Shown: one piece after another, positions 24,882 through 55,314 of the stretch
Layout: the number at the start of each line of letters is the position of its first letter
How positions within the stretch are numbered: position 1 is the first letter of the stretch
From: Parietichytrium sp. I65-24A
Taxonomy: Eukaryota > Sar > Bigyra > Thraustochytrida > Thraustochytriidae
DNA length: 64,000 nt
Reading direction: 5' to 3'
NCBI GenBank assembly: GCA_012862575.1
Contig: BLSF01000017.1
Coordinates: 372,001-436,000, forward strand
Notes under the pieces: generated by a model
Told to the model about the DNA's origin: nothing
The model's database searches: none
What the model saw: the letters and a program-made list of their open reading frames with translations, nothing else
Position numbers and translations under genes: made by a program

Positions 24882-27800
24882 CTACCATGTATTCTTTCGA
24901 GCATGCATGCCCACATTGCAAAAGCTGCACCGCGTCTGACACTGCGTGCCACAAACGACACAGGTAATGTTCTTCTTCTGGGAGATTTGCTCATGGTTGT
25001 TCGAAGACATGCGCATACGCTTTACCAAAGGCTCGTTTGCTCTTTTAATAATTTGTCTCTTACCCGAGATGAACGCCAAGGACTCCTCGTACTCTGTATT
25101 GGAAAGTGCACTTGAGGAAGTTGCTTGACCCGAGAGGCTCTCATCGTCTGCACCATCGTGAAATGGAGGGTCTAAGTGCTCCGATGCGCTTGAGGAGTTC
25201 GCTTGACCCGAGAGGCTTTCATTATTTTCACGTACGTGAAATGCACAGTCAAAGTGCTCCGATGCGCTCCTGAACCTGTCGGCATCTTCAATCAAACGTT
25301 TAGAGAGGCTGTGAACATAGTCTGGCATGCTAATTAGGCGGGAACATTTGTTTCGGAACCAGTCCAGTCCTCCCCAGAAAGGCTGTGTTTCCTTGTAAAC
25401 TTTCAACAGCCTCCAAAGAAGGCAAGAGTTGATGCAAGCGTCGAAGACCCGGCTCACTGTCACCCTGGTCTCCCACGACATATTGAGCGCGCGTGTCTTG
25501 AAGCTCTTCTGATATTCATCAATGCCATCCACACATTGTCTACCTTTGTTGTAGTAAAACTGCACGAGGGACCTGAAAAGGCGAATCGGTCGAAGAACGC
25601 CAATCTCATTGCGCTTGCGATGAAGTGCACGCCACAATGGAAATCTCGACTTCATCACACTGCGCTGCTCGGCGCTATAACCGAGACGCTCAAGCGACGG
25701 CCACTTTGGTCTCGCGTCAGTTTCGACACCAGTCCACGCCCATTCAACCATATCCCGCACACCGGAGAATACGTTCGCCCAAGCCCCAAGCTGTGCAGGC
25801 TCAAAAGTGATCAAGACCATGTACAATGTTTTTGCCTCACTGGCTACGCAAAGCACAACTCTTCGCCGCTGAAACACAATGGCCTGGTGAATGAGCTGTC
25901 CCCGATATTCCTGGGGGACAACTTTGAACCACAGCTTTGAACCGGCGGAGCAGGCGAAATAAGGACCAAACTTGTTTGCAATCTTTGTGGAATGATCCAG
26001 AGCTCGGGTACTTGTTTTGGTCTTGATCTCGAGGGGCGCGACGAAGACTCCTTCCGTGTCCGGGGCCCGTAGCACAATGATACCGTCTGCGCTAACTCCC
26101 AAGTGAGGATTGCGTCTCGATTGCACGAGCACGATGTCATACACTGCTTTAACAAATGACTTTTCCCGAAGCTCTTTAACAACCCCTTGCTCATTTCGTG
26201 AGCCTGTCACGAGAGCGCGATTTTGCTTGCTCCCAGCCGCCTTTGGAACGGAGAACCAGCCATCATACAAGGCCGTAGCTACCTCCTCCTTTGTGAGCGG
26301 CTCATAGTCTCCCTTTGTAGGGTCTTCGACGAACAACAGTCTTCGAACGATCGGATCCCGTGCAGCGATTCGTTGCGCGGTTGTGCCAGTCACCAGAAAC
26401 TGCCGGAAAAGAAACCAGTCAGCACATCGCTGGCCTGCAGTGAGAGGCTTGATGACGTTTTGGAGATTCATTTCCATTGTGTCCCGCGCCGCTCCAAAAC
26501 CGCCACAGTCCAAAGATTGAATCAAGGCGTCGTCCAGTACAGTCTTCGTGACACAGTCGTGAAGATCCTCGAAAGCCTCAACGCCGGCCCAAAAGTCGTC
26601 CACTGCGTTGAGACCACGGGATTTCTCTTCACTCACAGCGTCCCCTTCATCATCTGCATCTTCAACAGCGGAGTTGTGATTGCTGCCGTCTGGTTCCAGC
26701 TGGTCAGTAGAGTCTACTGTATCGTCGTGGCCACTGATACTGATGCGCTTCGCCCCATCATTCTCCTCCCTGTTGTTTCGGCGATTGTCCTCTTCAACAT
26801 GCTCATACTCGGTTTCCACGTTTACTTTGTCCAGGTCCTCGAGCTCGTCGTCCTCTTCGTCGCTGTCGTCCTTGCCGTCTTCCATCTCCTCGTCGTCTTC
26901 GTCGTCTTCCACCTCCTCATCGTCCTCATTGTCTTCCTCCTCGTCGTCGTCTTCCGCCCACCCCTCTCCCGCCCCCGAGATGTGATTTCCCTCCTCGTGA
27001 AAAGTGGCTTCGTTGTCGTTTTCCTTCCGCCGCCTTTTGTTTTTGGGAGCTGTGCTGTCTTCCAGATCATGAACATCAGCACGAGGATAAAAAAGCCAGT
27101 TCGCTATCGCATCCTGCCGAGCTTGAGGATAGTGCTCCATCACGAAGGAAGATTCCATACTGTCCATGAGGTCTTCATCTAGCATTACAACAAACCTCTG
27201 CACGAAAGTGCTGGATGAGTCACCGTGCTCGCGGACAGCGTAGGCCCGAGCTTCAACGGTCCAGCCGGAGCCCCTGGACATACTCTTGCGCGCAGAGAAA
27301 ATCTCCTGCCCCATCTTCGGATTGTCATCGATCACGAACGCCGGGCGGAAATCCATCATACTCTTCTGCATTTCCCAGCCCCTGCTCTCGTATGCCGCAG
27401 GGAGTTCAGCAAGTACCTTTTTGGTGATAAAGGGGTTGCCCTGCTGCTTCTCCTTGTCGTTGATAACGATTAACGAAAACCCGAGTTTGGCACAGCGACG
27501 ATACAGTTCAACGCTAGGATATTCACGATCGAGACAAATCTCAACCCCAGCAACATCGTGCATAACATCTTTGAGCTTGACTACAATTTGCTCAAAGACG
27601 TCGATTTGGCTGTACCCTGTGGTATACAGCGAGTTTAAAACCAAAAGACTCAGAGATGCATCCGCAGCTGTGTCCGAGCCAGCTCCATTCGTGTGTCTCT
27701 TTCTCGGCCTGTAGGCTTTCCCAGGATTCATCACAGACACGGTCCCAGTGTTCCGGTCATCGATTGTGATACGTATGTACTTGTTTGACACAACTCGTAG

Positions 27801-28592
27801 CACAAACTCGCTGAGAATTTCATCGAGAACCTTGAAATGTTTTGAGCTATCCGTGTCCGTGTGAGAGTGTTCTGTCGTTTTTTTGGGAGGCATGAAGCCT
27901 GATAAAGCGGACTCTATCTCGTTGAAGCGTCGGAGAGAAAGCAAGGTTGACCTGTCCACTTTCATCGAGTGCACTTGGCCCTCCAAATCATCGAAGCAAA
28001 GTAACTTGCTAATATTGGATTGCGACATACGCAGGAGTTGTCCAAGGAACGCAACCATTTCCCAAGCCTTGACCGGATTGCGCTTGAGTCTACGCAATTT
28101 GACATTTGTCCATTCACGGATTCGGTCGATACCAGGGCCCATGACGAGACGAAACATTTCAAGCTCGGAGATGTCTGAGTCTGAACCAGTTGAGACATCA
28201 TCACCCCTGTCGACCTCGTCCCATGCGTCCTCAAGATTGCTCCCAACGTGCTGCACGTGGCACTGCGCTCGAGCGTCAATCTTGCAAACTTTCATTGCCT
28301 CGGCTCTGGAGATGATGGTTACGTCCTTTTTGGAGCACTTGCTCCACTTCTGATGGAACATCTTCTTGGGTTCAGGAGAGGCTCTCTTGCTTGTATTTTC
28401 GGACTGCGGCGCGCCAGATAGGTCTAATGGAATCGCACTGCTGGCAATGCCATTTCCTTTCCGCAGCTTGCAACTCGAAACACGATCGTTCAGGTGGCCA
28501 CTCTCACCACATTCCTCGCAGATTACTTCGTCGCTATGCTCGCCCTCATTCACTATCATTGGTAACCTGCTCGCAGCTTTCCTCTTGACCAT
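24882..28592 (-). CDS. piggyBac-type DDE transposase with an internal YqaJ-like nuclease domain
   Basis: A 1,236-residue protein. The order is: CCHC-like zinc knuckle (C25, C28, H33, C41); a piggyBac-like N-terminal region with REWTNVKLRRL and RFNEIESAL; catalytic Asp 1 in ITIDDRN (about 278); Asp 2 in CLDREYPSVELYRRC (Asp355); a basic NLS-like KNKRRRK (517-523); a long acidic stretch (548-600); a YqaJ/lambda-exonuclease domain (about 720-930) with WFLFR, NEQGVV (E801), SADGII (D836) and LEIKTK (E855, K857); then the third piggyBac motif YYNKGRQCVDGIDE (Asp1022) with DACINSCLLW. A 78-bp in-frame tandem duplication (25123-25278) follows, and a CxxC...CxxC zinc-binding C-terminus. The nuclease thus interrupts the DDE domain between Asp 2 and Asp 3. 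ATG 28592 is the first in frame. It is either a mobile element or a domesticated copy. Confidence 0.85.
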   Translation of the reverse strand: MVKRKAASRLPMIVNEGEHSDEVICEECGESGHLNDRVSSCKLRKGNGIASSAIPLDLSGAPQSENTSKRASPEPKKMFHQKWSKCSKKDVTIISRAEAMKVCKIDARAQCHVQHVGSNLEDAWDEVDRGDDVSTGSDSDISELEMFRLVMGPGIDRIREWTNVKLRRLKRNPVKAWEMVAFLGQLLRMSQSNISKLLCFDDLEGQVHSMKVDRSTLLSLRRFNEIESALSGFMPPKKTTEHSHTDTDSSKHFKVLDEILSEFVLRVVSNKYIRITIDDRNTGTVSVMNPGKAYRPRKRHTNGAGSDTAADASLSLLVLNSLYTTGYSQIDVFEQIVVKLKDVMHDVAGVEICLDREYPSVELYRRCAKLGFSLIVINDKEKQQGNPFITKKVLAELPAAYESRGWEMQKSMMDFRPAFVIDDNPKMGQEIFSARKSMSRGSGWTVEARAYAVREHGDSSSTFVQRFVVMLDEDLMDSMESSFVMEHYPQARQDAIANWLFYPRADVHDLEDSTAPKNKRRRKENDNEATFHEEGNHISGAGEGWAEDDDEEEDNEDDEEVEDDEDDEEMEDGKDDSDEEDDELEDLDKVNVETEYEHVEEDNRRNNREENDGAKRISISGHDDTVDSTDQLEPDGSNHNSAVEDADDEGDAVSEEKSRGLNAVDDFWAGVEAFEDLHDCVTKTVLDDALIQSLDCGGFGAARDTMEMNLQNVIKPLTAGQRCADWFLFRQFLVTGTTAQRIAARDPIVRRLLFVEDPTKGDYEPLTKEEVATALYDGWFSVPKAAGSKQNRALVTGSRNEQGVVKELREKSFVKAVYDIVLVQSRRNPHLGVSADGIIVLRAPDTEGVFVAPLEIKTKTSTRALDHSTKIANKFGPYFACSAGSKLWFKVVPQEYRGQLIHQAIVFQRRRVVLCVASEAKTLYMVLITFEPAQLGAWANVFSGVRDMVEWAWTGVETDARPKWPSLERLGYSAEQRSVMKSRFPLWRALHRKRNEIGVLRPIRLFRSLVQFYYNKGRQCVDGIDEYQKSFKTRALNMSWETRVTVSRVFDACINSCLLWRLLKVYKETQPFWGGLDWFRNKCSRLISMPDYVHSLSKRLIEDADRFRSASEHFDCAFHVRENNESLSGQANSSSASEHLDPPFHDGADDESLSGQATSSSALSNTEYEESLAFISGKRQIIKRANEPLVKRMRMSSNNHEQISQKKNITCVVCGTQCQTRCSFCNVGMHARKNTW
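25123..25278 (-). repeat. 78-bp in-frame tandem duplication inside the transposase
   Basis: Two copies of a 26-codon unit (core gcttgacccgagaggct, starting 25123 and 25201) encode a repeated SEH...ESLSGQ peptide in the linker before the C-terminal zinc motif. The period keeps the frame. Confidence 0.85.
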
Positions 28593-29164
28593 GTTCCGAT
28601 TCCACTCACCCTTTGCTTTGTGGTCAGTCACGTGCTCGCGCGCTCTGTTGGTTCAAATGTATTTTTTCAAAGAGACTCTTGAAAAACCAGAATGAACTGT
28701 ACACGAAATGAGCTTTTTCTTCTGCGATGTACACATAAGTAAATAACGTTTTACCTTCACTTGTTCAATTTTGATCCGTTATTATAACTAAAGGTTAAAC
28801 TTCTCTTAGCCTTTAAACTTCTCTTAGCGATCATGGGGATTGTGTAAGTGGAGTACAACTAAAGGTTAACTTTTACTTAGCGATCATGGGGATTGTGTAA
28901 GTGGAGTAACAACTAAAGGTTAAACTTTACTTATCGATCATGGGGATAAATGTAGTATGTGGGACCCACAAAAAACAAAACCAGCAGGAGTGGTGACTAC
29001 GGATGACGACGGGACGAAGAGAGGGGGAAGGAGGGAGAGAGACAAGAGATCAATGCGACGATAAAAGATGATGATAAATGTCATTTCAAGAGATGTTTAA
29101 AGAAAATTCAAAGTTGACAGCACAGAATACTTAGTAGCTAAGCCGTTAGAGGAAAGGGGAGCGG
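28593..29164. other. Spacer between cyclase and transposase genes
   Basis: Holds the transposase promoter side and the 3' UTR of the cyclase. A three-unit repeat (28786-28953) is the main feature. GA-rich sequence lies at 29010-29060. No gene. Confidence 0.55.
28786..28953 (+). repeat. Three ~54-bp tandem units beginning aactaaaggttaa
   Basis: Units start at 28786, 28858 and 28912. Each has aactaaaggttaa(a)c, then a (t)cttag/acttat word, then cgatcatgggga; the first two continue tgtgtaagtggagta. The first unit is longer because an inner ~16-bp word is doubled. Each unit carries a TTAA preceded by AAAGG, whose reverse complement TTAACCTTT resembles ends of piggyBac-type elements. It could be subterminal repeats of the element or independent satellite. 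Confidence 0.85.
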
Positions 29165-32100
29165 TCAATTCTTGGTGGCGAAACGCGAGAACTCGAGGTT
29201 TCTGTGCACGGCGTGCCAGTACGGAGAACATGATGGGAATGTGTCGCTCAGAAGAGCGTACATGGAGTCTGCACTGAGCTGGTAGGCGCGGTGGTACTCG
29301 TCCTTCATGATGATGTGTGTTCGAGGACTGAGCTCCAACGAGTACCGGCGAGCCCACTCGCTGTGGAGCTGCATGCCTTTCGCGGCCGGGGAGAGCTTGG
29401 CGCACCCGATCACGAGCTCCATGATTAGTCCGTGATTCGAACAAGAAACTGCTTCTTTGGACTGACACATTTTGAAGGCCTTGTTATTCACCATATCCAT
29501 TGATACCAACAAGGTTTTCACCGTCTCAATGACCATGCTCGAATCCTCAGGTCTAAGATCCGCGAGCAAGTTCTTCATAAGCGGCGCCGCAAATGTGTAA
29601 GCAGATCCACTGACGCCACCGCTAAGGCCACCACCGGCTTGGCTGTCCTCCCCGTCAATGGCGCCTAAGCTCACAGTCGTAAGCTTCAGGCCAGGGTGCC
29701 CAAGACAATGGATTGAGGCAGCCAAGAACAGACTCAACAGCTCCAGGTTAGAGAAGCAAAGGTATGGCACCGCGCAGTCCTCTTCCGCGAGCCCCCATCC
29801 CATTGTTTGGATAAGCACATGCACCGCATGCAGCACATCCGCGGCATGAACGCTATTGTGATAAGGGGCGCGACTATTGTGCTGAATCTCTACGCGATGT
29901 GCAAACGTCGCCAGTTGATTCGGGTTGATCATATGAGCAACGCTGGGATACTGCGCAAATACAAGTTGGATTACTGTGAAGAGTGGCATCCTCTTGCAAA
30001 CGGTCTCGAATTGGAATATGTTGAAATCCCAAGAGTCAAATTCGTCAACGATACTCACAATGTCCTCCTGTGAGTACGAGGAGAAGCGGCTCGAAAATGC
30101 GTGGTGCGCAGCCAGTTCTTCGGCCTCAAATGTCTCAAAGTCTGCCCTCTTGTTTGTTACGTACTTTCTTGAGTGCGTTTTCTTGGCCCGGGGAAGACTG
30201 TTACCCAAACCCAGCGACTCTTGCTGGCCAGCCTGCAAGATGGCTGTCTCCTTCTTCGATAACCTGGTTGGAACCTCCTCCTCTGCCTCTGCCTCGGGCG
30301 AAATTTTGTAAGTCTTCCCCGCCTTCGCCGCTAGAAAATCCATCACAGCCCGAGAAACCCACTTCAGGACTGCAACAAGTTTGTTCGGCTGCTGTACAGC
30401 AGGCTTTGTGACGTCCGGGCTCAGCGGTCCCTGATTAATCACCGCAAGAGTTGGGCTGTGCATGATTCGTCGCATCTTCTCTTCCTCCTCCTCCCCATCC
30501 TCGTCCTCAACATATAAAAAGTCAATAGCCGCCAAGCTTCTCCTCATCAGGTCGCGATTGGCTTTGAGTGCTTCAGAGGGGCGGATGGTCACTTTGCGAG
30601 CGCGTGCAGTCAAAATGGCCTTTTCCATCATATTGCCCTGGGTCTGGAACAAGCTCACTGATGTGGTCCGGGTTTTTCGCATCATCAAACTTCCACTCGC
30701 GGGAGAAGTTATTTCGTCTCCGATGGAGCCCTCCACGGATGGCCGCTGAGGAGAGGACACTTTGGAGAGCAGCTTTTGCTGGCGGAAAGCCTCTACCAAG
30801 TCGTCAACATTGATGAGATGATAGATCAACGCTCTTCGGCACCCTTCCTGTAGGTCGTTCGACGTCTGCGCGGCTTCTGCTAGCTCCAGATACTCCTGAA
30901 GGACCTTGATCGCGCCATTGTGGATCTGCTTTCGCTTTGAGAACAGCATTCTATCGATGATAGCTTCGCGTAGCGCAATGCTTGGAAAGTAAAAGATCGA
31001 TCCTTTGGCAACGCCCGATGTGGGCTCAAAGGTGTTGATGGACGAGCACTCCGCCATTTTGGGGTCAGGGTTAGGGGATATGATGATAAGCCCTTCGCGC
31101 TGCAAGTTAATGGCCGTAGCCTCAAACTCTCGCAGCATCTCTGCTGTGACTTCCACTTGGGGTTTAAAGCCTGATGGCCCAGCTGCATTTTGGTAGAATT
31201 CTTTTCGGTGAAGATTGTTCGCCACTGCGACGAGGGTGCCAAAGTCAAAGTATGCACCAAAAATGCCGGACCCCCTTGCGAGTATACCAGCTACTTTGAG
31301 AAACACTTGCTCGTGCACAGTCAGCTTGTCGAAGGAGACTGGCACTAATGTTTCCTCCGCAAACGCAGACTTGCAGTCCTCTATTAAGACTTCAAAATCC
31401 ACAAAGTCTTGCCAATCTGCGACTCCGTCAGAGGACACGTGAATCCTATTCTTTAGACTGAACACCTTCAAGCAAGCGGTCAAAAGTCCAACCTTCCCTC
31501 CAGTCAGAAGCCACACCGACTCTAGGAGCGTCGGTGAGATTGTGGTGCCCCCCAACAAACGGCACAACACCTCCTCGACTTTGGTGATGTGCAAGTGACC
31601 GACAGAAAGAGAAAAGGTGTTGAGGCGCCAAATCAGGTCGCTGTAACCTTGGCACGGCCCACGTGAAAAGGATGGCCAGTATGCGCGCTGATGCTGTGGA
31701 AGGGTGCTCATCACTAGAAATAGCCCGGATGCCGTTTTCTCCATCAACTCATTAGAGAATTTCCATTCACACGGATGCAGAAGCTCCGCATTCTCAATAC
31801 AAATCACTATTGTTCCTCGACTCTCAGCCTGAACTTTGGCGACTGCCTGCTGCATTACACTGCAGCCGAATTCAAACGCAGCAGTCTCGTCTCTGCGCGT
31901 TGCCTCGATTCCAACCGTGAGTCCCTCCAGGTCAACCAAAATATTTCTCTCAAGAATGCCGCCACCAAACCAGCCATATTGCAACAGCTCGTTGGCGAGA
32001 TTGTCTCCAAGATTGAGTGTCTCGATCAGTGTCATGAGAATGCGCGACCACACGGACATGGTTTTGAAAGAGGTTCTAGAAGCAAACGCCTGGGTCCGGA

Positions 32101-34024
32101 TGACAATAGAAGGTTTTTGTTGGTCTTTGATCAGTTGCAACGAAGTGTTTGTGTGCTGCCGAACGAGCGGTTTGTTTGGCGACCTCTCCTTCTTGGAGTC
32201 GCCTTTACGAATCCATACACCCAACACTCTCTCCGCACGACTCTCGGGGTTGCTGACCTGTTCTAAATTGAAATCTGACTGCAATGAAGTAATAAACTTG
32301 TCCACCAAAAAGAGTGCGGCAGGGCCAGGGTCGGTGAGAACAAAGAACGCCACGCTGACTTGCTTGTGGGACACGGAAAATCGATCAAAGGCAAAGAACA
32401 TGTTAAGTGCCAGGGTTTCTGACCCCATCCGCAAGGCATTCATGTATACCAGCGGAGCGGAGGTAGAAAGTATCGAACTGGACGCCAGTCGGTCCAAAAC
32501 ATCCCCTCCCTTGCGCAAAGAAGGGAGCTGAAGTCGATCGTCTCGCTCAAAATGATGCGCCCAACCAGGTTGAAAAACAGGGAGAGCCTCGAGTTTGCCC
32601 TTCAGTTTAAGCGTTCCGGCCGCTCGAAAGCACAACTCCGAATGTGCGCAGGCGAGCCCGCTTCCGGCACGCGACCTCGTCTCAGAGTCGCACAAGATGT
32701 ATCCACAATACATTTCAGTCTGGACCATCATGTTGCAATATTGTTTAGCAGACTGCATTAAACGAGCAGCGGTGTTTACGAGATCTCCGAGCATTGTGTA
32801 CTCTCTCCTTGAGCCACCTCCCATTGGGCCACAAAACACTTTTCCGGTTGTCACACCCATATAGCATCGGTTTCTGTACTGCAGCTGCGACTTGAGTGAC
32901 ACCACAATGTCGAGGCAAGCACTTACGGCACGGATCGAGTCATTCGCGTGAGATAAAGGCGGCAAGCCAAAGGCGATGAGAGCTGTGCTTCCCTTGTCGT
33001 CCAATAAAAACTTGTTTATACTTCCTTCGTGGCGATAGGTCTCGCGCTGGACTACCTTGAAGACGTCCTGCAAGAGCTGGAGGTTTTCCATGGTCACGTC
33101 TTTTTGAAACATGGCTGACCCAAAGCCAAGATTCAAAAACGCCACAGAAACAGTTCGAAGCTCGGGAAGCCATGTGGCATAAGAGTGCATGTACTGCTTA
33201 ATAGATGCTGGCGCATATCGCAACAAGGTGTGGCGTAGCTCAAGTGAATCCAAGAGCTCTCCACGCTTAACAGACACGTCCTTCACACGTTCCCTCATTT
33301 TCAATAGTCGTACATACTTTGCATCCACAGCTGACTGTTTTGTGCTCGCGTTCGCATTTGGCGACCCCTTGCCGCTGTGAGTGGCGTTTGAAGATCGAAC
33401 CTCCTTACCCTCGAACGGGCCTGCTCCCTTCCCAAGCAGCATCCACAGTGCCTTCGACACGACAATATCTCCGGGCGTACATTGCCCTTCGCAGGACAAT
33501 GCTTCGCCCAACGCGGGTCCAGCCACGACATACTCGAGGCGGTCGTAGGTGCCTCCAACATGCAATACATAAGCGCTACCTTTGCCGATGCCAATTTTAA
33601 TAGAAAACGAGACTCCCTCCGCCAACTCGGCATCGTTGAGGACTGCTTGCAGCTCGAATGCACACTGCGCGGCACGATGTGCCACCACTGCCATAGGGTC
33701 CTGCTCCACCTCTGGTTCGTCTGGTGTCCACAGAACGAGGGCGGCATCCCCTGCAAACTTGAAAATGTCTCCGCCGCTTTTACCCAAGAGCTTGACGATC
33801 TGCTCAAAATACCTGTTGAGAAAGAATGCCATCTTTTCAAGGCCTCGCTCACCCTGTTGTCCCAGCTGCTCGGTCAGCTTGGTAAACCCGCTCAAATCGA
33901 GGAATAGTACAACGCATTCCAGCTTGTCCATAAACGGCGCAGCCGGGAGTTCGCCCACGCTGAGCCTTGCAAGGACTTGCCGAGGCACGAACTCCTCCAC
34001 TCGGAGGCGAAGTTGTTTGTCCAT
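29165..34024 (-). CDS. Soluble-type (ADCY10-like) adenylate cyclase fused to a C-terminal phosphodiesterase-like domain
   Basis: A 1,619-residue protein without introns. Two class III cyclase domains lie at the N-terminus, as in animal soluble adenylate cyclase: C1 (about 36-200) with LFLDLSGFT (Asp43) and GGDIFKFAGDAAL (Lys89, Asp93), and C2 (about 288-450) with INKFLLDDKG and EYTMLGDLVNTAARLM (Asp414, Asn417, Arg421). Both metal aspartates, the adenine-selecting lysine and the transition-state Asn/Arg are present, so cAMP synthesis is expected. A large middle region matches the sAC NTPase/TPR-like part, with a Walker B-like ICIENAELL but no clear P-loop. The last ~300 residues are PDE-like (LDSWDFNIF-like start, PYHNSVHAADVLHA) but lack metal ligands. 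No membrane helices. ATG 34024 is chosen; upstream frame is only a GT repeat. Confidence 0.92.
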   Translation of the reverse strand: MDKQLRLRVEEFVPRQVLARLSVGELPAAPFMDKLECVVLFLDLSGFTKLTEQLGQQGERGLEKMAFFLNRYFEQIVKLLGKSGGDIFKFAGDAALVLWTPDEPEVEQDPMAVVAHRAAQCAFELQAVLNDAELAEGVSFSIKIGIGKGSAYVLHVGGTYDRLEYVVAGPALGEALSCEGQCTPGDIVVSKALWMLLGKGAGPFEGKEVRSSNATHSGKGSPNANASTKQSAVDAKYVRLLKMRERVKDVSVKRGELLDSLELRHTLLRYAPASIKQYMHSYATWLPELRTVSVAFLNLGFGSAMFQKDVTMENLQLLQDVFKVVQRETYRHEGSINKFLLDDKGSTALIAFGLPPLSHANDSIRAVSACLDIVVSLKSQLQYRNRCYMGVTTGKVFCGPMGGGSRREYTMLGDLVNTAARLMQSAKQYCNMMVQTEMYCGYILCDSETRSRAGSGLACAHSELCFRAAGTLKLKGKLEALPVFQPGWAHHFERDDRLQLPSLRKGGDVLDRLASSSILSTSAPLVYMNALRMGSETLALNMFFAFDRFSVSHKQVSVAFFVLTDPGPAALFLVDKFITSLQSDFNLEQVSNPESRAERVLGVWIRKGDSKKERSPNKPLVRQHTNTSLQLIKDQQKPSIVIRTQAFASRTSFKTMSVWSRILMTLIETLNLGDNLANELLQYGWFGGGILERNILVDLEGLTVGIEATRRDETAAFEFGCSVMQQAVAKVQAESRGTIVICIENAELLHPCEWKFSNELMEKTASGLFLVMSTLPQHQRAYWPSFSRGPCQGYSDLIWRLNTFSLSVGHLHITKVEEVLCRLLGGTTISPTLLESVWLLTGGKVGLLTACLKVFSLKNRIHVSSDGVADWQDFVDFEVLIEDCKSAFAEETLVPVSFDKLTVHEQVFLKVAGILARGSGIFGAYFDFGTLVAVANNLHRKEFYQNAAGPSGFKPQVEVTAEMLREFEATAINLQREGLIIISPNPDPKMAECSSINTFEPTSGVAKGSIFYFPSIALREAIIDRMLFSKRKQIHNGAIKVLQEYLELAEAAQTSNDLQEGCRRALIYHLINVDDLVEAFRQQKLLSKVSSPQRPSVEGSIGDEITSPASGSLMMRKTRTTSVSLFQTQGNMMEKAILTARARKVTIRPSEALKANRDLMRRSLAAIDFLYVEDEDGEEEEEKMRRIMHSPTLAVINQGPLSPDVTKPAVQQPNKLVAVLKWVSRAVMDFLAAKAGKTYKISPEAEAEEEVPTRLSKKETAILQAGQQESLGLGNSLPRAKKTHSRKYVTNKRADFETFEAEELAAHHAFSSRFSSYSQEDIVSIVDEFDSWDFNIFQFETVCKRMPLFTVIQLVFAQYPSVAHMINPNQLATFAHRVEIQHNSRAPYHNSVHAADVLHAVHVLIQTMGWGLAEEDCAVPYLCFSNLELLSLFLAASIHCLGHPGLKLTTVSLGAIDGEDSQAGGGLSGGVSGSAYTFAAPLMKNLLADLRPEDSSMVIETVKTLLVSMDMVNNKAFKMCQSKEAVSCSNHGLIMELVIGCAKLSPAAKGMQLHSEWARRYSLELSPRTHIIMKDEYHRAYQLSADSMYALLSDTFPSCSPYWHAVHRNLEFSRFATKN

Positions 34025-34720
34025 CTCACCGACCCAGACGCACACGCACACGCACACCCACACGCGGCAGCTTGGCTGTCGCCAAGGCCTTCCTCGAGGC
34101 TGCTCACGGCGACTTGCTTCCTCTCCCTCCTCCCAACGCGAAGGCTGTGTCGACCCTACGTCCGTGCGGCCTGGCGTGCCGCGTGCTGTTCGTCAACTTG
34201 CTCTCTCGCTGTTCAAAGTCGGCGCTGTGTCTTCAGAGCCTGGCTCTGTTTACTCTATATTTAGACCTTAGCCTCTGCCGTCTCGACTCTCTGCTTATTA
34301 TCACCGAGCGAGCATTGGCAAGGTCTGAAAACAACGCCTCCTTCTGCTTGCCAACACTACTGTACTGAGTACCAGTGCAACACTCTATCAGTTTACGACC
34401 GAGTCGAGTCTTTTGCTCATTCACGATTCCCAAAGGCACTTGGCGCTAGGCGCATTGGTGCCACTCTCTCTTCCTTCTATCCGGCCAGGCCTTCCTCCTT
34501 CTTCCCGCTGTTTCGTAGAACTGTCTGTCTGCACACAACTCTGAATTCAGAATATTCAGATTGGCTCTCGGAAGACGCGAGCACTTGCCTCTTCCTCGCC
34601 GCCACCGCTCTTTCGTGCTCGCTCTTTCTTTTCACTGTCGCAAGCGCCAACCAAGACCCAACCTCTGGCCGTTTAAGCCAATCGATTCATTCATTCACTC
34701 TATCTCGCTCGCTGAGTGCC

Positions 34721-54930: not shown

Positions 54931-55314
54931 GTGGCCACGGGCAACGTGATGCGCTCTTCTGCAAAGACTGCCGACTAGCTGGACAGTTTTGCGGAGCGGT
55001 CTTCCAGGATCGGGGCATATTTGAGAGTGTTAGCATAGTGTTTGAATTCCGTCTGCAAGTGCCCATGTGCAGGGCTGAAGGGCTGAAGGGGTCGTCAGCG
55101 CTAACCTTCGTATTCACAGTCAAGGCAGGTCGAGATCAAAGGTGTACATTACTTCATACTTTTTCGGAGATTTAAAAAATCGCATGGTATGTATCTATAT
55201 TTATATTTCTTTCTCTTTTTAATGTGCTTGGCTTGTGTTGACGTCAATAATACCGGAGGCGGCTGACGAAGCCATGCGAAACGTCTCCTAAACATTCACA
55301 GAATTAAGGACGTA
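54931..55314. other. Spacer before the lysA stop
   Basis: Probable 3' UTRs. T-rich near 55190-55220. No gene seen. Confidence 0.5.

Follow-up and report, generated by a model that had tools for sequence, protein, structure and literature searches.

Locus and predicted domain architecture

We analyzed a 64,000-nucleotide stretch of contig BLSF01000017.1 (positions 372,001 to 436,000; assembly GCA_012862575.1) from the thraustochytrid Parietichytrium sp. I65-24A, here called the window, whose genome comprises 42.5 Mb in 172 contigs. An open reading frame (ORF) on the minus strand (28631–24882) opens with GTG, has its first ATG at 28592, and contains no internal stop. From this ATG it forms a single frame of 1,236 amino acids (24882–28592, stop included) predicted to encode a piggyBac-type transposase with a nested YqaJ nuclease. 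Sequence and predicted model uphold the original prediction, which was made from the letters alone and placed the nuclease between catalytic Asp 2 and Asp 3; that it is nested there, within a piggyBac-type RNase H fold, is almost certain.

All features of this gene lie on the minus strand. The first half of the RNase H fold (strands 1 to 5; residues 272–378, 27459–27779), located by predicted model and family profile, carries Asp 1 (D278, 27759–27761) within ITIDDRN and Asp 2 (D355, 27528–27530) within CLDREYPS, both placed by alignment and family profile. Asp 3 (D1022) lies within YYNKGRQCVDGIDE, in a helix with Y1014 and N1015 (residues 1009–1028, 25509–25568) that was placed by model, alignment, and profile. 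REWTN, ACINS, and a C-terminal CxxC...CxxC are also found, so the piggyBac motifs and cysteine-rich C-terminus originally quoted are all present. As modeled, the three aspartates (DDD) sit in an RNase H-like fold of piggyBac topology.

The nested YqaJ/lambda-exonuclease-type domain (residues 706–930, 25803–26477) was delimited by Pfam and the predicted model. Pfam YqaJ, one of the checks proposed at the outset, matched the window protein above its cutoff (24.9 versus 22 bits, E = 2.8e-5), and by sequence and model the domain has a lambda-exonuclease fold with an E-D-ExK active site. In the alignment, this site consists of E801 (26190–26192), D836 (26085–26087), and the E855-x-K857 motif (26022–26030), all correctly numbered in the original prediction. 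Both active sites are complete in the window copy, with all seven catalytic residues present. R730 and T737 (26382–26405), S834 (26091–26093), and Q899 (25896–25898) form a candidate 5′-phosphate pocket and are retained together in 15 of 17 aligned family members. We take these residues to correspond to R28, S35, S117, and Q157 of the lambda exonuclease 5′-phosphate pocket, for which our literature search did not find a source.

In the window model, the chain runs from three β strands (residues 430–469, 27186–27305) through a low-confidence, partly acidic linker (residues 507–678, 26559–27074; predicted local distance difference test [pLDDT] <50) to the nuclease, and then to the helix bearing Y1014, N1015, and D1022. 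The strands resemble, and may correspond to, the three-stranded insertion domain of piggyBac. By both sequence and model, the nuclease stands ahead of D3 and the second helical half, and it seems to have been added to the native insertion domain rather than to have replaced it. The acidic stretch previously noted before the nuclease spans residues 540–601 (65% Asp or Glu) within the low-confidence segment of approximately 170 residues. An acidic linker at this position occurs only in the clade of the window copy; the sister clade has no counterpart.

The remainder of the protein includes a predicted helical dimerization/DNA-binding domain. Its N-terminal half (residues 143–267, 27792–28166) consists of model helices inside the range that aligns to PDB 6X67, and its C-terminal half (residues 1040–1125, 25218–25475) was likewise located in the model. 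A CxxC-GH-C knuckle-like motif near the N-terminus (residues 25–41, 28470–28520), also found in some relatives, may bind zinc. At the other end is the cysteine-rich domain (residues 1194–1236, 24885–25013), where the family profile matches the end of piggyBat and where four cysteines are kept in all 17 members.

Relationship to piggyBac

A profile of the 17 family members matched the solved structures of piggyBat (E = 1.7e-13 over three stretches) and T. ni piggyBac (E = 3.2e-9), and it matched the cysteine-rich stretch of piggyBat (514–576) with an independent E-value (i-E) of 3.3e-6. The predicted fold aligns to PDB 6X67 across model residues 41–1046, and in this model the RNase H fold closes around the nuclease, the point that the structural check proposed at the outset was to examine. 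In predicted structure and family profile alike, the best matches are piggyBac and piggyBat. Pfam zf-Tnp_2 was matched in 1 of 13 members (E = 0.012). Judged by the family profile against solved structures and by the predicted fold, membership in the piggyBac superfamily is established, and the strength of the profile match is in the sum and order of its stretches.

Like piggyBac and piggyBat (PDB 6X67 and 9C0F), the window protein combines a DDD site in an RNase H fold with a flanking helical domain, a YN pair before D3, a β-stranded insertion, and a C-terminal cysteine-rich domain. Unlike in piggyBat, where 44 residues separate them, the matched D2 and D3 stretches are 448 profile positions apart, with the nuclease inside. 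The sole piggyBac protein of the genome that is detectable with Pfam (798 amino acids, C1:162637–163833) has no nested nuclease; its third Asp appears by eye to be replaced (FNNRV), which raises the possibility of inactivity or domestication. At C42:80332–80712 the genome encodes a YqaJ protein that stands alone (316 amino acids, E = 4e-23) and is only weakly similar to the nested domain.

A family within the same genome

Protein searches of the same genome, combined with frame analysis, identified 16 long open frames (998–1,341 amino acids) with the nuclease region. In a seventeenth member, C3 (used as C3p), the front half lies in a different frame. C33 lacks the D1-D2 stretch, and the protein starts of C5 and C14a lie in another frame. 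The genome also contains C3del, a copy without D2 and the insert; C63, which is interrupted by stops; and several fragments. C3p and C33 were excluded from trees because their D1-D2 half is missing, and C3del was excluded from the 17-member tally because it has no insert; C63 and the fragments were excluded from every alignment. Because long frames related to the window gene recur in this genome and have the nuclease region at the same place, the sequences indicate that the nested arrangement defines a genuine protein family and did not arise as a chance fusion.

Across the 25 member pairs listed, amino-acid identity was 23–65%. Third codon positions were 44–51% identical in the three closest pairs and 28–36% in the other 22, and first and second positions were more identical than third positions in all 25. 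The ratio of nonsynonymous to synonymous substitution rates (dN/dS) over the whole length was 0.17, 0.14, and 0.20 in the three of seven pairs that could be scored, the remaining four being saturated. Within the three closest pairs, dN/dS of the nuclease was 0.12 in each, the lowest among scorable parts (equalled by the D3 part in one pair), and that of the first transposase half was 0.16, 0.15, and 0.23.

Trees of the transposase and nuclease parts (15 members) differed by a Robinson-Foulds distance of 6, with support below 80 at most conflicting nodes, and the transposase tree was not rejected by the nuclease data in the approximately unbiased (AU) test (AU 0.074). The simplest reading of these sequence comparisons is a single insertion before the family diversified, with joint inheritance since. 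Two members from different clades lie head to head at C67:191632–199179 with approximately 0.7 kb between them, an arrangement that could reflect a shared promoter or a nested insertion.

State of the two active sites

We then scored catalytic losses from a MAFFT alignment, in which a shifted residue (perhaps that of C6b at D3) would count as lost. Both sites are complete in 5 of 17 members (the window copy, C29, C98, C6, and C78), which have the three D of the transposase site and the nuclease set of E, D, E or D, and K, seven residues in all. Four members have only the nuclease set (C52, C25, C67p, and C6b), two have only the DDD set (C67m and C14b), and in five neither set is complete (C5, C14a, C33, C16b, and C38). 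C3p retains the nuclease set, and the D1-D2 half is absent from the frame used. Paralogues that have lost one or both sites may be partner subunits or may serve the host.

Flanks, repeats, and neighboring genes

At the DNA level, matches to the window gene were confined to three stretches of conserved coding sequence in C29 and C25 (67–71%) and to short matches in the acidic part. Nothing else in the genome matches its 5′ flank, which includes a region at 28813–28947, upstream of the start codon, where a 53-base unit containing TTAACCTTTAGTT is repeated 2.5 times; this repeat is a possible element-end remnant or regulatory repeat. Flanks of different copies matched one another only in the spacer common to the C67 pair, a dispersed repeat present in at least 41 places, and 35 bases common to C29 and C5. 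The dispersed repeat is SINE-like (short interspersed nuclear element) or MITE-like (miniature inverted-repeat transposable element) and occurs genome-wide, including near three family members. It is up to approximately 155 bases long, with 78–95% identity to the copy beside C52 (C52:111061–111244) at the 40 other places listed. In C14b, the best 20-mer inverted match between flanks exceeded the best shuffle by one match.

Two copies have unusual surroundings. At C98:54085–59807, a partial second copy lies immediately upstream of the full copy and consists of a 172-base repeat (100%) and 1 kb of the 3′ end of the element (98%); a single N at 55258 separates the two, and the doubling may not be a true tandem but may instead reflect a deletion allele or a join made during assembly. 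Around C14b (frame 621465–624800), an inverted pair (163 bases, 68%) lies approximately 1 kb beyond either end. Its arms look coding, and the pair perhaps represents two related genes in opposite orientations around the element.

Frames adjoining the window gene match eukaryotic Pfam families (cyclase/phosphodiesterase, HECT ligase, and DEAD/HA2-type helicase). The first is a single frame of 1,632 amino acids at 29165–34063, with guanylate/adenylate cyclase domain matches in two stretches and a cyclic-nucleotide phosphodiesterase domain.

Comparison with known systems

Several DDE transposases of other superfamilies are associated with an exonuclease. ISL2EU, of the PHIS superfamily, encodes both a DDE transposase and a YqaJ exonuclease; unlike the single ORF found here, it carries YqaJ on a separate ORF, and it has a Harbinger-like transposase with THAP and helix-turn-helix (HTH) features, produces AT target duplications, and is reported from animals (PMC4482050, PMC9179366). 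We rejected membership in ISL2EU on the basis of the single ORF and the best structural and profile matches, which are to piggyBac and piggyBat. KolobokE likewise has a DDE transposase and a lambda-exonuclease-like PD-(D/E)xK nuclease, but the nuclease is downstream of the transposase domain rather than before D3, and the element belongs to the Kolobok superfamily with its C/DxxH signature (PMC9587614). In Dada elements of Laccaria and Ectocarpus, an exonuclease sits inside the transposase, after catalytic D2 and ahead of the DxxH motif (PMC3706591); it is a DEDDy 3′-5′ exonuclease and differs in fold, polarity, and transposase superfamily. Because of this precedent, the principle of placing a nuclease inside a transposase after D2 is not itself novel. 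Dada membership was rejected because the window nuclease is of the lambda-exonuclease type, not DEDDy. Paramecium, like this genome, has several diverged piggyBac paralogues (PiggyMac and the PgmLs, the latter without a full DDD), for which the portions of PMC6143343 consulted do not describe a nested nuclease.

The nested domain shares its fold and E-D-ExK residues with lambda exonuclease, RecE, and YqaJ nucleases, which are free-standing enzymes not known to be nested in transposases. The open-licence full-text literature that was searched yielded neither a lambda exonuclease nested in piggyBac nor this protein. Searches for relatives elsewhere, in collections that seem to hold few or no eukaryote genomes, found none with the whole window protein (7,998 candidates scored, 0 at E ≤ 0.001), with a D2-to-end alignment of 13 members (8,000 candidates, 0 at E ≤ 0.01), or with the 17-member alignment (7,999 candidates, 0 at E ≤ 0.01). 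None of 21 pattern matches in viral contigs or 65 in bacterial and archaeal contigs was confirmed as a relative.

A proposed model for coupled excision and resection

We consider the best explanation, and a reasonably probable one, to be a piggyBac-superfamily transposase with an inserted lambda-exonuclease domain that may be coupled to processing of donor ends. Probably a single ancient event, the insertion placed the nuclease at the distal edge of the native insertion domain, just ahead of the Asp 3 helix. In piggyBac, the catalytic domain (263–457) is broken at 372–433 by a three-stranded insertion domain, at a place where other DDE transposases also have insertions, with this domain lining the channel occupied by target DNA (PMC7351741). 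The same source gives the active site as D268, D346, and D447, with Y439 and N440 contacting the TTAA hairpin, which forms when the 3′-OH attacks the flank four nucleotides away.

The original suggestion was that the nuclease may process ends or help recombination. The coupling of excision to resection by the nested enzyme is a more tentative proposal than the architecture, and we would give it somewhat less than an even chance. The DDD site would nick and hairpin the element ends as in piggyBac, whose excision leaves donor flanks with 5′-phosphorylated, complementary 4-nucleotide overhangs. Flanks left with such overhangs could then be loaded, by their 5′-phosphates, into the tethered exonuclease beside the channel for flanking or target DNA and be resected 5′ to 3′. 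Homology-directed or annealing repair would take the place of seamless TTAA rejoining at the donor site, and could restore the element there and raise its copy number.

A number of results count against this explanation. Pfam DDE_Tnp_1_7, whose failure to match had been named at the outset as a refuting result, matched neither the window protein nor any of 13 family members (single-sequence scan, E ≤ 10); the piggyBac relationship was established instead by family profile and predicted fold. A single-sequence search of solved structures with the window protein gave no match. With the 17-member profile, the catalytic stretches of piggyBat are individually weak (i-E 0.21 and 0.34) and only its cysteine-rich stretch is strong, while that of T. 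ni piggyBac scores below zero and is not significant. A second model, of a distant member, was unusable (mean pLDDT 50.7). The placement of C67p conflicts between the two part trees (support 97 versus 83), and the nuclease tree was marginally rejected by the transposase data (AU 0.049). At least one active site is incomplete in 11 of 17 members, and a further member, C3p, is missing the part where D1 and D2 would lie. TTAA-flanked inverted ends, a feature of the piggyBac superfamily, were found in none of 13 copies with flanks of 0.7–1.8 kb (the copies are old and their true ends unlocated), and for 12 of the 13 no 20-mer inverted match between flanks bettered the top result among 20 shuffles. 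A DNA search of the genome found no nucleotide-level copies of the window gene.

Some of these observations would also be expected of a domesticated multigene family, in which former transposases serve the host in programmed DNA excision, break repair, or element defence, and in which catalytic and non-catalytic paralogues assemble together, as in Paramecium Pgm and PgmLs. We regard this as somewhat unlikely, although much is consistent with it: long frames remain open despite third positions near saturation in most of the 25 pairs, dN/dS is 0.14–0.20 in the three scorable pairs, the C-terminal cysteines are universally kept, nucleotide-level copies and TTAA-flanked ends were not found, and nuclease-only, DDD-only, and doubly dead paralogues retain open frames. 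There is also precedent in the PgmLs, which lack a complete DDD triad and of which each group is still required (PMC6143343). However, the scatter of copies across many contigs, the broken copies and fragments with stops, and the lack of shared flanks indicative of segmental duplication suggest past transposition, and the purifying selection could stem from that mobile period. That single copies remain intact and under constraint suggests either that several old lineages were recently active or that the host uses the proteins. A specific form of the domestication hypothesis, in which piggyBac-derived subunits with both sites, either one, or neither assemble into one machine that cuts out defined DNA segments and resects the ends, is quite improbable; if true, the machine would parallel Paramecium PiggyMac in another protist, with an exonuclease built in.

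It is unlikely that the copies are relics now drifting, with a nuclease useful only while they were mobile and a window copy functionless today. Frameshifts or losses in C3, C5, C14a, C33, and C3del, and stops in C63 and fragments, fit such decay, but 16 open frames at 23–65% identity exceed the expectation for long drift, and the window frame is intact with every catalytic residue in place. That the nuclease is mainly a structural or DNA-binding appendage whose catalysis is irrelevant seems very doubtful: its residues are gone in 7 of 17 members (C67m, C14b, C5, C14a, C33, C16b, and C38), yet the full set persists in 10, four of them with a broken DDD set, and in the three closest pairs its dN/dS is the lowest of the scorable parts, with one tie. 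An artefact (two genes read through, an unrecognized intron, or an assembly chimera) is next to impossible. We found no point in its support; in 17 members spread over many contigs, one frame takes in the nuclease together with the D3 and cysteine-rich parts, in all of these but C33 and C3p (15 of 17) that frame also takes in the D1-D2 half, and constraint extends across the insert.

piggyBac is valued for footprint-free excision. A natural lineage with a predicted 5′-3′ exonuclease beside such an active site suggests that selection acts on the fate of the donor end and that this fate can shift from rejoining to resection. Together with ISL2EU, KolobokE, and Dada, this family suggests that eukaryotic DDE transposases have recruited exonucleases repeatedly, and its paralogues in which only a single active site survives allow comparisons in which nature has already separated the two functions.

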